Translations under genes and position numbers: made by a program | The notes under the pieces: model-generated | The model's input: only the letters and a program-made list of their open reading frames with translations | Database searches by the model: none | Told to the model about the DNA's origin: nothing | In this document: one piece after another, positions 48,200 to 57,953 of the stretch | How positions within the stretch are numbered: the first letter of the stretch is position 1 | How the letters are laid out: every line of letters begins with the position of its first letter | Assembly (NCBI GenBank): GCA_012841145.1 | Contig: DUVH01000011.1 | Coordinates: 24,904 to 88,903, forward strand | Reading direction: 5' to 3' | DNA: 64,000 bases | Source of the DNA: Clostridiaceae bacterium | GTDB lineage: Bacteria; Bacillota; Clostridia; Saccharofermentanales; DTU023

Positions 48200-48312
48200 A
48201 AACGCTTTTTTCGCGATGCTGACTTGACAAAATAACTGAATTTATCGTGCGATCGACAAGAAATTAGTCGAAATAGACGTATTAAGCTGTTCAAACACTG
48301 ATTGACAGTGTC

Positions 48313-48342
48313 TTGACCTGATTTTTATACTGATTTTACGAT
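48313..48342 (+). promoter_or_regulatory. Possible promoter for the HPr-like gene
   Basis: TTGACC and TACGAT are separated by 18 bp, 41 bp before the start. A second TTGACA lies at 48224-48229 without a good partner. The 184-bp spacer holds no gene. Confidence 0.5.
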
Positions 48343-48383
48343 TATATTCCTGGCTGTCGGGATGTCCGGAACGGAGGAACGCC

Positions 48384-48641
48384 ATGTCAAAAAAAGGTGT
48401 CGTCTTTCATTGTAAAGAGGAGACATTAATGAAAGCGATCGCGATGGTTATCCAAATATCGTCTAATTTCGATTCAAGTATTTTTATTGAAAAAGACGGT
48501 CGCCGTGCGAACGCTAAAAGCCTGCTCGGCGTTCTGTCTCTCGGAATTGAGCAGGGTGATTATCTCACCATCACTGCCGAAGGTGACGATTCTGAAGAGG
48601 CGCTGAAGAAGCTCACACAGTACGTAACGGCCGACGCGTAA
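48384..48641 (+). CDS. HPr-like protein lacking His15 (Crh-like)
   Basis: The 85-residue protein is clearly of the HPr fold: the regulatory-Ser region reads NAKSLLGVLSLGIEQGD, with Ser exactly at position 46. The active-site loop that in HPr reads GLHARPA is KEETLMKAIA here, so position 15 is Leu and position 17 is Lys. It cannot accept phosphate from Enzyme I at His15, but could still be a target of HPr kinase at Ser46. Bacillus Crh, which has Gln15, works this way in carbon catabolite control. It stands alone before uvrC with GGAACGGAGG as ribosome-binding site. Confidence 0.85.
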   Translation: MSKKGVVFHCKEETLMKAIAMVIQISSNFDSSIFIEKDGRRANAKSLLGVLSLGIEQGDYLTITAEGDDSEEALKKLTQYVTADA

Positions 48642-48684: not shown

Positions 48685-50649
48685 ATGACAGCACTTCAAA
48701 CGAACAAAAAAATATTTAACGCACAACTTGAATTGGTGCCAAGTGAACCCGGTGTCTACCTCATGCGTGACAAGTCGGGTTCTGTTTTGTACGTGGGAAA
48801 AGCGAACTCGTTAAGGCAGCGTCTCGCCAACTACTTCACCGCGAACCCCGATGTCGACGACCGTATCGCCTCCATGATCTCGCGTATCGCCTCGTACGAT
48901 ACGATCATCTGCGACAATGAATTGGAAGCTTTCATCTTAGAGGCGAATCTCATTAAAAAGTACCGGCCGCGCTACAACATTCTCATGCGTGATGACAAGG
49001 AATACCCCTACATTCATGTCACGCTTCAGGAGGAATTTCCTCGTGTCATGAGAGCTTTTCGTGTCGGTGAGGACATCGAGGAAGGAGCGCGATACTTCGG
49101 TCCGTGGCTGAGCGGCGACGTGAACCGCGCGTTGCAGGCGCTCGGCTCGATTTTTCCTCTCCGGCGCTGCAAGCGTGACTTGCCGCGCGAGATAGGGAAA
49201 GAGCGGCCTTGTCTCAATGCCCATATCGGGCGCTGTCTTGCTCCTTGCGCAGGTCGGATTTCGAAGGAAGAGTACAGGCAGATTGTCGATGAGGTCTGCC
49301 TTTTCCTTGAGGGACGCACGGACGACTTGATCAAGAAACTGCACAGCGAAATGTTGGCGGCATCCGACAGGCTCGACTTTGAGGAGGCTACCGTTTTGCG
49401 CGGGAAATGGCAGGCGCTCAACCGATTGCGTGAACAGCAGCGCGTCGTCGATGTCGCCGGAGGCGACCGCGATATTCTGGCGCTTCACCGCAACGGCTAC
49501 GAAGTCGCCATCGCGAAACTTGAAGTGAGAGATGGGCGCGTGACAGGGTGCGTCCATACGTTTGCCGAGGATAGCGGCGGTCACGACGGCACGTATTTTT
49601 CGTCGTTCATACGCGACCATTACCGCGTCTCGTCGCAAATACCTCCCGAAATTCTCGTGTCGGCTTTGCCGGACGAGGTGGAGCTGCTCACGCTCTTTTT
49701 ACGCGAAAAGCGCGGTCACTCCGTCACGATACGTCGTCCGCAGCGAGGATCGAAAAAAGCGCTTTTGGAGCTGGCGATGACGAATGCCGATCGGGCGTTG
49801 ACGCGGCGTGCGCTCTCTCGCGGCTCCGATCCTCATGTGCTCGAACAGACGCTCATGTTGCTCGGTCGCCTTGTCGGACTTGATCGCCTTCCTTTCCGCA
49901 TTGAAGCGTATGATGTCTCGCACCACGGGAAAGGAGCGAGGTCGGGCTCTATGGTCGTCTTTCAACAAGGCAAACCTGAGAGAGGGTCGTACAGGCACTT
50001 TTCGATCAAAGGATTTGAGGGGATTGATGACTACAAAGCGCTCAAAGAAATCGTAAGTCGGCGACTTGACCGCCTAGATGAGGAGTCGTTCGGCAATCGG
50101 CCGGATCTCATCCTTGTCGACGGAGGTATCGGTCATGTAGCTGCCGTGCTCCCTCTCGTGGAGAGACACGGTCTCTTTGTCGCAGGTATGGTGAAAGATG
50201 ACCGCCATCGCACGCGCGGACTCGTCCTTTCGTCCGGTAATATCGTAGAACTGGCGACAGCGGGATCGCTTTGCCAATACCTAAGTGAAGAAGAACGCGG
50301 CGAATGCGAAGACGACCGCGGCGAATGTGAAGACGACCGTCAGCGGGAGACGGAAGACGCGCGAGCGAAGAGGCTCGGCCTTCTCCATTTGCTGACGTCG
50401 ATTCAGGACGAGGCGCACCGGTTCGCCTTGCGCCACAATCGTAAAGTACTCGAAAAACGCGCGATGCGCTATGCGCTTGAAGCTATACCTGGCGTTGGCC
50501 CCGCGCGGAGAAAACGGCTGCTTGAACATTTCGGCACGAGTAAAAAGATCAGTGAAGCGAGCTTAGAAGAGTTGATGAGCGTCAAAGGTATACCACACAC
50601 GGTGGCGGAAGCGGTGTACAATCATTTTCAAGAACAAACGCGCCGGTAG
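48685..50649 (+). CDS. uvrC: Excinuclease ABC subunit C
   Basis: The 654-residue nuclease makes both incisions in nucleotide excision repair. In order: GIY-YIG domain (EPGVYLMRDKSGSVLYVGKA), Cys cluster RRCKRDL and CLNAHIGRCLAPC, UVR domain (about 205-240), the RNase H-like C-terminal nuclease (RIEAYDVSHHGKGARSGSMV, LILVDGGIGHVAAV), and two helix-hairpin-helix motifs at the end. An acidic insertion near residues 535-560 contains two 7-residue repeats and is described separately. Confidence 0.96.
   Translation: MTALQTNKKIFNAQLELVPSEPGVYLMRDKSGSVLYVGKANSLRQRLANYFTANPDVDDRIASMISRIASYDTIICDNELEAFILEANLIKKYRPRYNILMRDDKEYPYIHVTLQEEFPRVMRAFRVGEDIEEGARYFGPWLSGDVNRALQALGSIFPLRRCKRDLPREIGKERPCLNAHIGRCLAPCAGRISKEEYRQIVDEVCLFLEGRTDDLIKKLHSEMLAASDRLDFEEATVLRGKWQALNRLREQQRVVDVAGGDRDILALHRNGYEVAIAKLEVRDGRVTGCVHTFAEDSGGHDGTYFSSFIRDHYRVSSQIPPEILVSALPDEVELLTLFLREKRGHSVTIRRPQRGSKKALLELAMTNADRALTRRALSRGSDPHVLEQTLMLLGRLVGLDRLPFRIEAYDVSHHGKGARSGSMVVFQQGKPERGSYRHFSIKGFEGIDDYKALKEIVSRRLDRLDEESFGNRPDLILVDGGIGHVAAVLPLVERHGLFVAGMVKDDRHRTRGLVLSSGNIVELATAGSLCQYLSEEERGECEDDRGECEDDRQRETEDARAKRLGLLHLLTSIQDEAHRFALRHNRKVLEKRAMRYALEAIPGVGPARRKRLLEHFGTSKKISEASLEELMSVKGIPHTVAEAVYNHFQEQTRR
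50296..50337 (+). repeat. 21-bp in-frame duplication in uvrC
   Basis: CGCGGCGAATGCGAAGACGA and its neighbour copy CGCGGCGAATGTGAAGACGA are directly adjacent, 21 bp apart with one substitution, and encode RGECEDD twice. Confidence 0.9.
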
Positions 50650-51450: not shown

Positions 51451-52338
51451 ATGCCAAAAAGTATGACAGGTTACGGGAGAGCCGTTGCGACGGACGGAAC
51501 GAGGACATTCCGTGCTGAATGTCGTTCCGTCAACCACCGTTTTCTCGAATTATCGATACGGATGCCGTCCGCCTTTAACGCGTGTGAAACGAATATACGC
51601 GCGAAAGCACAGGAATATTTAGCGCGCGGGCGCGTTGAGATTAGAATCATGGAAGAAGCAGGCGGAGTGCTGCAGGGCCGGATCGTCATCGATAAGAACC
51701 TCGCCCGATCGTATTTAGATGCCTTGGCTGAACTCGAACTCATTGCGGGGGAGACAGCGGTCGATCGAGTCGAGTGGCTGTCGCGGTGCGACGGTGTTCT
51801 TTATGCCGGACAGGAGGATGATGACGATGAGCACGTCGCCGCACTCATCATTGAGGCCGTCGAAGGTGCCCTTCAAAAACTCAACGATGCGCGCGAAGAA
51901 GAGGGCAACTTTATCGCGAATGATTTGCTCGATAAAGTCGCGGAGTTTAGAGAGCACACCGCCCTCGTAGAGGAACGCGCCTCCGAGATGCCGACAATCT
52001 ACCGTGAGAAACTGTTGGCGAGGGCCGAGGAATTGCTTGAAGAGAAAAGGCCTGAGTGGTATGACGACCAGCGTCTTTTTGCGGAGACCGCGCTTTACGC
52101 CGATCGGGCGTCGATCGATGAAGAAGTGACGCGTCTCGCCGCGCATATCAGCGCTTTGGAAGACGGTCTCCGCTCAACGGAACCGGTCGGAAGACGGCTC
52201 GACTTTCTCATTCAGGAAATCTTGAGAGAGACGAATACAATCGGATCGAAGGCGGGCGATCTCGTGTTGACGCAGACAGTAGTCGAGATGAAGACGCTGA
52301 TCGAAAAAATCCGCGAACAAGTCCAGAATCTTGAGTGA
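51451..52338 (+). CDS. YicC-family endoribonuclease
   Basis: The 295-residue protein begins with the family signature MPKSMTGYGRA and RAECRSVNHRFLELSIRMP. It ends with RLDFLIQEILRETNTIGSKA followed by EMKTLIEKIREQVQNLE. YicC proteins are hexameric endoribonucleases in E. coli. The gene begins a yicC-remA-gmk-rpoZ cluster that is common in Bacillota. Confidence 0.93.
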   Translation: MPKSMTGYGRAVATDGTRTFRAECRSVNHRFLELSIRMPSAFNACETNIRAKAQEYLARGRVEIRIMEEAGGVLQGRIVIDKNLARSYLDALAELELIAGETAVDRVEWLSRCDGVLYAGQEDDDDEHVAALIIEAVEGALQKLNDAREEEGNFIANDLLDKVAEFREHTALVEERASEMPTIYREKLLARAEELLEEKRPEWYDDQRLFAETALYADRASIDEEVTRLAAHISALEDGLRSTEPVGRRLDFLIQEILRETNTIGSKAGDLVLTQTVVEMKTLIEKIREQVQNLE

Positions 52339-52348
52339 GGTGAGGGAG

Positions 52349-52609
52349 ATGTCTTATGAAATGATACCGGTGGGACACGGTAATTTCGTTGCCAGAGCGC
52401 GCCTGATCGCCGTCGTGACATCGGATTCGGCGCCTGCGAGGCGGCTGATACAAGACGCGCGAGATCGTTTTTCGCTCATCGATGCGACGGGCGGGCGGAA
52501 GACGCAGTCAGTCTTGGTGATGGACAGCGACCATGTGGTGATCTCTGCCATCAAGCCGGAATCGCTTCAGCTCGGATGTGGAGATAAGGAGGACGATAAC
52601 GATGAGTAA
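52349..52609 (+). CDS. remA: RemA/DUF370 DNA-binding regulator
   Basis: ATG 52349 gives 86 residues; the track start is six codons too early and overlaps yicC. The family core is unmistakable: VGHGNFVARARLIAVVTSDS, then APARRLIQDARDRFSLIDAT and VLVMDSDHVVISAIKPE. In Bacillus RemA activates biofilm matrix and osmoprotection genes as an oligomeric DNA-binding ring. It overlaps gmk by 8 bp. Confidence 0.92.
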   Translation: MSYEMIPVGHGNFVARARLIAVVTSDSAPARRLIQDARDRFSLIDATGGRKTQSVLVMDSDHVVISAIKPESLQLGCGDKEDDNDE

Positions 52610-55250: not shown

Positions 55251-55325
55251 AAAATAGATAAGCAGAACATGCCGCCGATTATTGGCAATCGGTGCTTTCT
55301 AAAACCGAAAATTGGAGGAATAAAA

Positions 55326-57953
55326 ATGACGAAATACGTCTACATGTTTTCTGAGGGAAACACTTCGATGCGTAACTTGTTGGGCGGTAAAGGTGCCAAC
55401 CTCGCCGAGATGGTGGGGATGGGTTTGCCTGTGCCGAACGGATTTACAGTCACGACGGAAGCTTGTAATCGCTACTATGGCGACGAAGAGAAGATAGCTC
55501 CGGAGATCGTTGAGGAGATCTTCGAATCGCTCACAAAACTTGAAAAAGAGACAGGAAAAGAATTCGGTAATCCCGAAAAGCCGCTACTCCTGTCCGTGCG
55601 CTCAGGTGCTCGCACCTCGATGCCCGGTATGATGGACACGGTTCTTAATCTGGGTTTGAACGATGCCGTCGCGGAAGGCTTGACGAAACTGACCGATAAT
55701 CGCCGTTTCGTTCTCGACAGCTATCGCCGTTTCATTATGATGTTCGCCGATGTCGTGATGAATATTTCGCGTACATTTTTCGAAGGAGCGTTGGATCGCG
55801 TCAAAGAAGAAGCAGGTATTACGCAAGACATCGATTTGTCCGTCGCCGACCTAGAAAAAGTTTTGGTCGAGTATAAAGAGATTTACGAGCGCGAGCAGGG
55901 TGAATCTTTCCCGCAAGACGTGAAAAAACAGCTTATCTTGTCAGTCGAAGCCGTCTTCCGCTCATGGAATACAGATCGCGCCGTCTACTACCGTCAGATG
56001 AACAACATCCCTTCACACTGGGGAACAGCCGTCAACGTCCAAGAGATGGTCTACGGCAATATGGGTGAAACGTCAGGCACGGGTGTCGCTTTCACGCGCA
56101 ACCCCTCCACGGGCGAAAATGAGCTCTATGGTGAGTACCTCATGAATGCGCAGGGTGAAGACGTCGTTGCCGGTGTCCGCACGCCGCTGACGATTGATCA
56201 CTTGGAAGAGCAGATGCCGGATGTCTTTAAGCAGTTTTCCGACATTGCGAATCAGCTGGAAGCGCACTATGGCGATATGCAGGATCTCGAGTTTACGATC
56301 GAGAACGGCAAGCTCTTTATTCTTCAGACGAGGAGCGGTAAGCGCACGGCGATGGCCGCACTCCAAATTGCCGTTGATATGGTGACGGAGGGGATGATCT
56401 CGCGCGAAGAAGCGCTGCTCAGCATCGATCCGAAACAGCTCGACGCTTTATTGCACCCCGCATTCGATCCCGACGCGCTCGCCAAAGGCAAGCGGATCGC
56501 GAAAGGCTTACCGGCTTCCCCGGGGGCTGCTTACGGCCAGATTGCCTTTACGGCGGAGCAGGCGGCAAAAGCTAAAGAAGAAAACCGTCTCGTCATCCTC
56601 GTCCGTGAAGAGACGTCTCCGGAGGATATCGCGGGCATGAATGCCGCCGCGGGTATCTTGACCTCAAGGGGCGGAATGACTTCTCATGCGGCCGTTGTGG
56701 CGCGTGGCATGGGCAAGTGCTGTGTCGCCGGGTGTTCGGAAGCCATCATCAATGAGATGGCGCAGACACTGACGATCGGTGACAATGTCTATGGCCCCGA
56801 TTCGTTTATTTCGCTTGACGGGTCGACGGGGATCGTGTACGAAGGTCAAATCGAGACGCGTGAAGCTGAAATGTCGGGCAACTTCCAAGTGATTATGGAG
56901 TGGGCCGATGAGATCAGCGACATGAAAGTCCGCGCGAACGCCGACACGCCTCATGACGCGCAGGTCGCCCGCGACCTCGGCGCCGTGGGTATTGGTCTTA
57001 CGAGGACGGAGCACATGTTCTTTGAAGCTGATCGTGTTTTCCTGTTCCGTCAGATGATCGTCGCACGTAATGAAGACGCGAGAAGAGCGGCGTTGGCGAA
57101 AATTCTTCCGATGCAGCAAGAGGACTTCTACGGTCTGTTCCGTGTGATGGACGGCTTGCCGGTCATCATTCGCCTGCTCGATCCGCCGTTGCACGAGTTT
57201 TTGCCTACTTCGGAGAAGGAAATCGAAGAACTTGCCAAGGAACTCGGTATTACACACGAGCGTCTCAAGGACATCGTGACAGAGCTTAGCGAGATCAACC
57301 CGATGCTCGGTCACCGCGGATGCAGACTCGCTATCAGCTATCCCGAGATTGCAGAGATGCAGACTGAAGCGATCATCAAGGCAGCCCTGCAGGCGACGGC
57401 AGACGGATATACCGTAATACCGGAAATCATGGTGCCGTTGATCGGTGAAGTTAAGGAACTCGAGTATCTCAATCGCGTGATCAAGGATACGGCTGATCGT
57501 CTCATCGCCGAGTCAGGTCAGTCTCTCAAGTACTTGGTTGGAACGATGATCGAGATCCCGCGTGCATGTCTCCTGGCGGACGATGTCGCGATGGAAGCCG
57601 ATTTCTTCAGCTTCGGCACGAATGACTTGACGCAGATGACGTACGGGTTGTCGCGTGATGACGCCGGAAAAATTCTCGAGACGTATTACGAGAAAGGCAT
57701 CTATGACGCAGATCCGACGGCGCATCTCGACCGTCCCGGAGTCGGCAAGCTGATGAGAGTTGCCGTTGACCTCGGCCGTAAGGCGAAACCTGATCTCGAA
57801 CTCGGTATCTGCGGTGAACACGGAGGCGATCCGTATTCCGTCGAGTTCTGTCAGATTCTCGGACTTGACTACGTCTCATGCTCGCCGTTCCGCGTTCCGA
57901 TCGCGCGCCTTGCCGCAGCTCAGTCGGCGCTTCGTTATCCGCGCGAAAGCTAA
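55326..57953 (+). CDS. ppdK: Pyruvate, phosphate dikinase
   Basis: ATG 55326 with TTGGAGGAA upstream gives 875 residues, the normal length. It interconverts PEP, AMP and PPi with pyruvate, ATP and Pi, and in anaerobic fermenters commonly runs in glycolysis. N-terminal ATP-binding domain: MSEGNTSMRNLLGGKGANLA-like start and GETSGTGVAFTRNPSTGENE. The phospho-His lies in LTSRGGMTSHAAVVARGMGK. The C-terminal PEP barrel shows GIGLTRTEHMFF and LGICGEHGGDP. Its 3' end is duplicated downstream. Confidence 0.97.
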   Translation: MTKYVYMFSEGNTSMRNLLGGKGANLAEMVGMGLPVPNGFTVTTEACNRYYGDEEKIAPEIVEEIFESLTKLEKETGKEFGNPEKPLLLSVRSGARTSMPGMMDTVLNLGLNDAVAEGLTKLTDNRRFVLDSYRRFIMMFADVVMNISRTFFEGALDRVKEEAGITQDIDLSVADLEKVLVEYKEIYEREQGESFPQDVKKQLILSVEAVFRSWNTDRAVYYRQMNNIPSHWGTAVNVQEMVYGNMGETSGTGVAFTRNPSTGENELYGEYLMNAQGEDVVAGVRTPLTIDHLEEQMPDVFKQFSDIANQLEAHYGDMQDLEFTIENGKLFILQTRSGKRTAMAALQIAVDMVTEGMISREEALLSIDPKQLDALLHPAFDPDALAKGKRIAKGLPASPGAAYGQIAFTAEQAAKAKEENRLVILVREETSPEDIAGMNAAAGILTSRGGMTSHAAVVARGMGKCCVAGCSEAIINEMAQTLTIGDNVYGPDSFISLDGSTGIVYEGQIETREAEMSGNFQVIMEWADEISDMKVRANADTPHDAQVARDLGAVGIGLTRTEHMFFEADRVFLFRQMIVARNEDARRAALAKILPMQQEDFYGLFRVMDGLPVIIRLLDPPLHEFLPTSEKEIEELAKELGITHERLKDIVTELSEINPMLGHRGCRLAISYPEIAEMQTEAIIKAALQATADGYTVIPEIMVPLIGEVKELEYLNRVIKDTADRLIAESGQSLKYLVGTMIEIPRACLLADDVAMEADFFSFGTNDLTQMTYGLSRDDAGKILETYYEKGIYDADPTAHLDRPGVGKLMRVAVDLGRKAKPDLELGICGEHGGDPYSVEFCQILGLDYVSCSPFRVPIARLAAAQSALRYPRES

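Follow-up and report, generated by a model that had tools for sequence, protein, structure and literature searches.

The HPr-like gene and its neighbours

The stretch of DNA analysed here, hereafter the window, comprises 64,000 nucleotides of contig DUVH01000011.1 from a Clostridiaceae bacterium, and carries on its forward strand (48384–48641) a gene for a His-less, Crh-like HPr homologue of 85 residues. The open reading frame is exact, with an ATG start and no interruption, and profile searches show that its product is the single HPr domain of the genome. A Shine-Dalgarno sequence, GGAGG, lies 6 nt 5' of the ATG (48373–48377, forward strand), and a consensus match identifies a candidate promoter further upstream (48302–48331, forward strand; TTGACA and TATACT separated by 18 nt, 11/12 matches). 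Direct reading, together with an alignment of orthologues (A1), bears out the residues that the first-pass annotation had singled out, namely Leu15, Lys17 and an intact Ser46 region. Codons 15 to 17 (48426–48434, forward strand) specify Leu15-Met16-Lys17 in place of His15-Ala16-Arg17, with Leu15 encoded by TTA at 48426–48428 and Lys17 at 48432–48434, such that Leu15-Met16-Lys17-Ala18 stands where the phosphoacceptor motif reads His-Ala-Arg-Pro. The Ser46 loop is complete: the AGC codon for Ser46, the expected HPr kinase target, is at 48519–48521 (forward strand) in the motif NAKSLLG, within RRANAKSLLGVLSLGI.

This is a real gene. Orthologues are present in 55 of the 59 genomes surveyed in the order, dN/dS is approximately 0.07–0.16 in comparisons with four genomes of the same genus (G001, G004, G009 and G006), and the AlphaFold model predicts the HPr fold, an open-faced beta-sandwich, with confidence (mean pLDDT 93.9). 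The protein matches Pfam PF00381 (PTS-HPr) at 71.8 bits against a cut-off of 23, and the predicted model agrees with known members of the family, with TM-scores of 0.88–0.90 to the best HPr/Crh structures and top PDB matches that are all HPr or Crh.

The gene ends at 48641 and uvrC begins 43 nt 3' of it (48685–50649, forward strand); the two are likely co-transcribed, and uvrC is a conserved neighbour within the orthologous group, with the HPr gene directly upstream of uvrC in most orthologues. Further downstream is ppdK (55269–57953, forward strand), encoding a pyruvate phosphate dikinase that is not an enzyme I (EI) although it is the only homologue of the enzyme I family in the genome; relatives also retain its linkage with the HPr gene. 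We note that a RemA-like protein is encoded between yicC and gmk (52331–52609), matching NF046064 at 96 bits, below the cut-off of 140.

A genome with HPr kinase and no enzyme I or LacI-family regulator

The assembly to which the window belongs (G000) is 1.57 Mb and 91% complete, and the absence of ccpA or ptsI from it therefore rests partly on relatives. Searches for hprK, ccpA, ptsI and a second HPr, as the first-pass annotation had proposed, recovered the first and none of the other three. The single hprK gene is intact, encodes 310 residues and lies outside the window, at L072:5442-6374, in an hprK-murB-rapZ-whiA cluster. Its product is a full member of its family: it matches TIGR00679 over the whole length of the model at 359.6 bits (cut-off 240), has an intact Walker A motif (GESGVGKS) and aligns end to end with the solved kinase 1KO7, and its catalytic domain aligns with 1JB1. 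Within this cluster whiA is directly 3' of rapZ (L072:7488-9325), with no yvcK seen between them.

The enzyme I model TIGR01417 finds in G000 only the ppdK product encoded in the window, far below its cut-off, and it is on the missing enzyme I and the missing His15 that we base the statement that G000 has no PTS. A phosphocarrier role for the window protein is rejected on the same two counts, and the phosphotransfer that the first-pass annotation had called impossible is ruled out in practice. Its suggestion that this might be the only HPr left in an organism without a PTS is likewise supported, as is that of a pure regulator working with HPr kinase. The proposed involvement of CcpA is not supported: searches of G000 with a model for ccpA (TIGR01481) and one for the LacI HTH (PF00356) both gave no match, and with no LacI-family regulator there is therefore no CcpA. 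Joint absence of hprK and ccpA had been put forward as evidence against a Crh-like role; of the two, ccpA is absent and hprK is present.

Conservation and variation among relatives in the order

Among the 59 genomes of the order survey, which includes the relatives of G000, hprK is found in 52 and EI in 18. All 18 genomes with EI also carry a separate HPr with His15, often adjoining ptsI, so that where the PTS is present each of two HPrs has its own task; same-genus genomes G001, G004, G005, G009 and G011, for example, have EI and a canonical HPr as well as the orthologue of the window gene. A separate His15 HPr occurs in only one of the EI-less genomes (G057), so that where the PTS is absent the Ser46 protein otherwise remains alone. 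The sister genomes G003 and G006 have neither EI nor any other HPr. Two genomes, G018 and G029, lack all four of the orthologue, hprK, EI and LacI proteins.

LacI-family genes are present in many relatives, and in none of the 59 genomes does a LacI protein score above the curated cut-off for ccpA. Six genomes retain the protein and hprK and lack both EI and any LacI HTH: G003 (97% complete), G006 (95%), G037 (99%), G040 (98%), G053 (98%) and G056 (100%). In the last four of these, the best listed matches to the ccpA model span only its ligand-binding part.

The typical orthologue in the order has the motif xxMKA(I/V)A..IQ..S...RRANAKSLLG. In alignment A1 Ser46 is invariant in 27/27 orthologues, and A42, N43, K45, S46, L47, L48, G49, S52 and L53 never vary, as against position 15, which is variously L, Q, H, E, D, S or P. 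From these sequences Leu15 is best described as lineage-specific, with Lys17 and the Ser46 loop as the conserved part. In one EI-less genus (g3; G015, G021, G027, G031 and G034) the uvrC-linked protein of this MKA type has His15 followed by Met16-Lys17, which shows that residue 15 drifts.

A second, very divergent family of His-less HPr-like proteins of about 78 residues (SGRYxVDAKSIMGIFSLDLSKP; alignment A2; L348–L361) is present in 31 of the 59 relatives, and also in eight genomes of the class survey described below, from families f15 and f36, that have hprK and no ordinary HPr. Its members may be another HprK substrate. When sought as a hidden second HPr, this family was absent across the whole genus of G000.

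Distribution across the Clostridia

An evenly sampled survey of 196 Clostridia genomes finds EI in 82 of them, hprK in 153 and some protein of the HPr family in 159. The 114 genomes without EI keep or lose HPr and hprK jointly: 75 have both, 29 have neither and 10 are mixed (75/2/8/29), giving a Fisher p of 1.5e-17, a value that treats related genomes as independent and is inflated in significance by their relatedness. The double loss of HPr and hprK occurs in at least nine families.

Gene neighbourhood and the identity of residues 15 and 17 can be compared by pooling the order and class rows. His15 is present in 20/24 of the HPrs linked to ptsI, in 53/113 of those linked to uvrC and in 7/23 of those linked to whiA, and Lys17 is present in 70/113 of the uvrC-linked proteins. 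Across the uvrC-linked group in the Clostridia residue 15 may be H, Q, E, L, D, S, N or others, and Ser46 is fixed. Many of the uvrC-linked clostridial genes annotated as 'HPr family phosphocarrier' are probably kinase-controlled regulators and not phosphocarriers, and a better name is suggested.

Two further arrangements are seen in the class. An intact GLHARPA motif is kept by the HPr of many EI-less Clostridia, often linked to uvrC (G187, G221, G125, G128, G205 and others). Four genomes of one family (G130, G152, G209 and G242; L226, L245, L236 and L230) have a divergent EI gene, scoring 375–389 bits, that adjoins an HPr in which residue 15 is Glu or Gly and residue 17 is Lys, and is paired in this way with an HPr that has no phosphoacceptor (no His15 and no Arg17).

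Proposed function and alternatives

HPr kinase is usually explained by two outputs, the slowing of PTS uptake and the activation of CcpA. Both are missing here, yet kinase and Ser46 protein have been retained jointly, under strong selection. The window protein is probably a Crh-type signalling protein that is controlled by HprK, is independent of the PTS, has lost the PTS arm of its activity and acts on a partner other than CcpA, with Ser46 phosphorylation and partner binding as the predicted steps. The HPr kinase/phosphorylase would phosphorylate Ser46 in response to the energy and glycolytic state of the cell, and the face formed by Ser46 and helix 1 would then bind or release a partner protein and alter its activity. 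The proposed contact face consists of residues 17, 20, 24, 46–49 and 53, which form the conserved face in A1 and, in the complexes of HPr with HprK and CcpA, the contact face. The specificity for kinase or partner could differ from that of known proteins, as judged by the residues themselves: Lys17 replaces the Arg of HPr and Bacillus Crh, and L47-L48 replaces I47-M48. Since the genome encodes no LacI-family protein the partner here is not CcpA; it would most likely be an enzyme, a transporter or a regulator of a non-LacI family.

Several other readings deserve consideration. The window protein might be an ordinary Crh/HPr-Ser-P co-repressor of a CcpA whose gene was missed through incomplete assembly, and we note that LacI-family genes occur in many relatives and that homologues of CcpA mediate the action of Bacillus Crh and, in a published model, of Ccel_0806 (PMC9631020, PMC3656788). 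We nonetheless consider this unlikely, as the LacI HTH is missing not only from G000 but from all six of the nearly complete genomes listed above, each of which keeps the protein and hprK, and no LacI protein in the order reaches the curated ccpA cut-off. Alternatively, EI and a true HPr could lie in unassembled DNA, with the window gene as a second copy in a PTS-bearing organism, as in the five same-genus genomes that have EI, canonical HPr and window gene together. This is less probable again, given that Leu15 cannot accept phosphate and that the sisters G003 (97%) and G006 (95%) are also without EI or another HPr; moreover, such a discovery would alter the PTS status of the genome, not the role of the window protein. 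Decay of a functionless HPr left behind by loss of the PTS would account for the disappearance of His15 and of Arg17-Pro18, but this reading is already contradicted by strong purifying selection (dN/dS 0.07–0.16), by order-wide conservation and by the concentration of invariance at the kinase-target loop, and we give it almost no credence.

Two proposals name a specific partner. The genome does encode a protein with a methylglyoxal synthase (MGS) domain, but it scores only 62 bits against a family cut-off of 146.9, appears to lack the catalytic motifs of E. coli MgsA, and persists in G018 and G029, which have lost both HPr and HprK. Methylglyoxal synthase is an unlikely partner, and that the window protein regulates it, in the manner reported for the Crh-MgsA interaction of B. 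subtilis (discussed in PMC9631020), seems to us very improbable. No more credible is a function tied to uvrC and DNA repair and not to carbon signalling: direct adjacency to uvrC is found class-wide, in the 113 uvrC-linked rows, but relatives keep the gene order beyond uvrC up to ppdK, which makes the arrangement look like a conserved housekeeping block, and co-retention of the protein tracks hprK. UvrC is itself found in genomes without a protein of this type.

The preferred reading, a Crh-type protein under HprK control with a partner other than CcpA, has a broader form on which we are evenly divided, namely that an anaerobic lineage of Clostridia related to Saccharofermentans and Mageeibacillus may possess a self-standing pathway from HprK to Ser46-HPr that operates without the PTS, CcpA or any LacI-family protein and has another target. 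With both usual outputs missing and the kinase and Ser46 protein kept, the lineage is a clean system in which to find other targets of HprK; in Bacillus such targets are obscured by CcpA and the PTS.

Phylogeny and comparison with known systems

The HPr/Crh tree that the first-pass annotation had called for was built from 65 rows with the columns around position 15 excluded, a 206-row tree being too poorly resolved; its Bacillus HPr sequence was entered by hand, and that of Crh is in agreement with the PDB alignment. All uvrC-linked proteins, including the Crh-like protein of Ruminiclostridium cellulolyticum, form one clade (support 97/94), and outside it fall the Crh and HPr of Bacillus as well as the products of ptsI- and whiA-linked genes. 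Within the clade the MKA group of the order, together with G068, is a subclade (98/90). Bacillus Crh groups instead with the whiA- and ptsI-linked HPrs. These data favour separate losses of His15 in the uvrC-linked line and in Bacillus Crh, with the direct AU test, in which the MKA group is constrained with Bacillus Crh, being borderline (p 0.053 on 71 columns). The resemblance to Bacillus Crh drawn in the first-pass annotation holds in logic; it does not extend to locus and probably not to ancestry.

The window protein has in common with B. subtilis Crh the absence of His15, the retained Ser46 loop and the HPr fold, and like the Bacillus type it is accompanied by HPr kinase. It differs in that Bacillus Crh has Gln15 followed by the retained Ala-Arg-Pro, as against Leu15-Met-Lys-Ala, and in that the CcpA target is missing from the genome. 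Its top NCBIfam match is NF010354 (PRK13782), which we take to be the Crh model, at 76.2 bits and below the curated cut-off of 123; cut-off, best tree and gene neighbourhood all place it outside Bacillus Crh. The Bacillus crh gene is located 3' of whiA, a layout that is also seen in other Clostridia. Canonical HPr (ptsH) shares with the window protein its fold and Ser46 region and differs in having His15 and Arg17; the genome of the window, moreover, has no enzyme I.

The closest known relative is the Crh-like protein of R. (Clostridium) cellulolyticum, whose structure, 7FF5, scores higher against the family profile than any other PDB entry (104 bits). It is of the same clade and is likewise His-less, with Asp15, Lys17 and RRANAKSLLG, although its motif reads GLDSKAA where that of the window protein reads ETLMKAI. 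Over 70 columns the sequence of 7FF5 shows no difference from the uvrC-linked gene of G174, a genome that has hprK and no EI, and we infer that 7FF5 is the product of Ccel_0806. The latter has been described as Crh-like and proposed to act via homologues of CcpA; its organism is thought to be without HPr and cognate EII (PMC3656788). Beyond that report, a search of the non-subscription literature on HPr-uvrC linkage and on CcpA-free HprK-Crh signalling in Clostridia yielded no direct description. CcpA homologues are present in C. cellulolyticum (PMC3656788), in contrast to the genome of the window, which has no LacI protein. It is this absence of any CcpA candidate that sets the present case apart; the kind of protein is already known, and is that of Ccel_0806.
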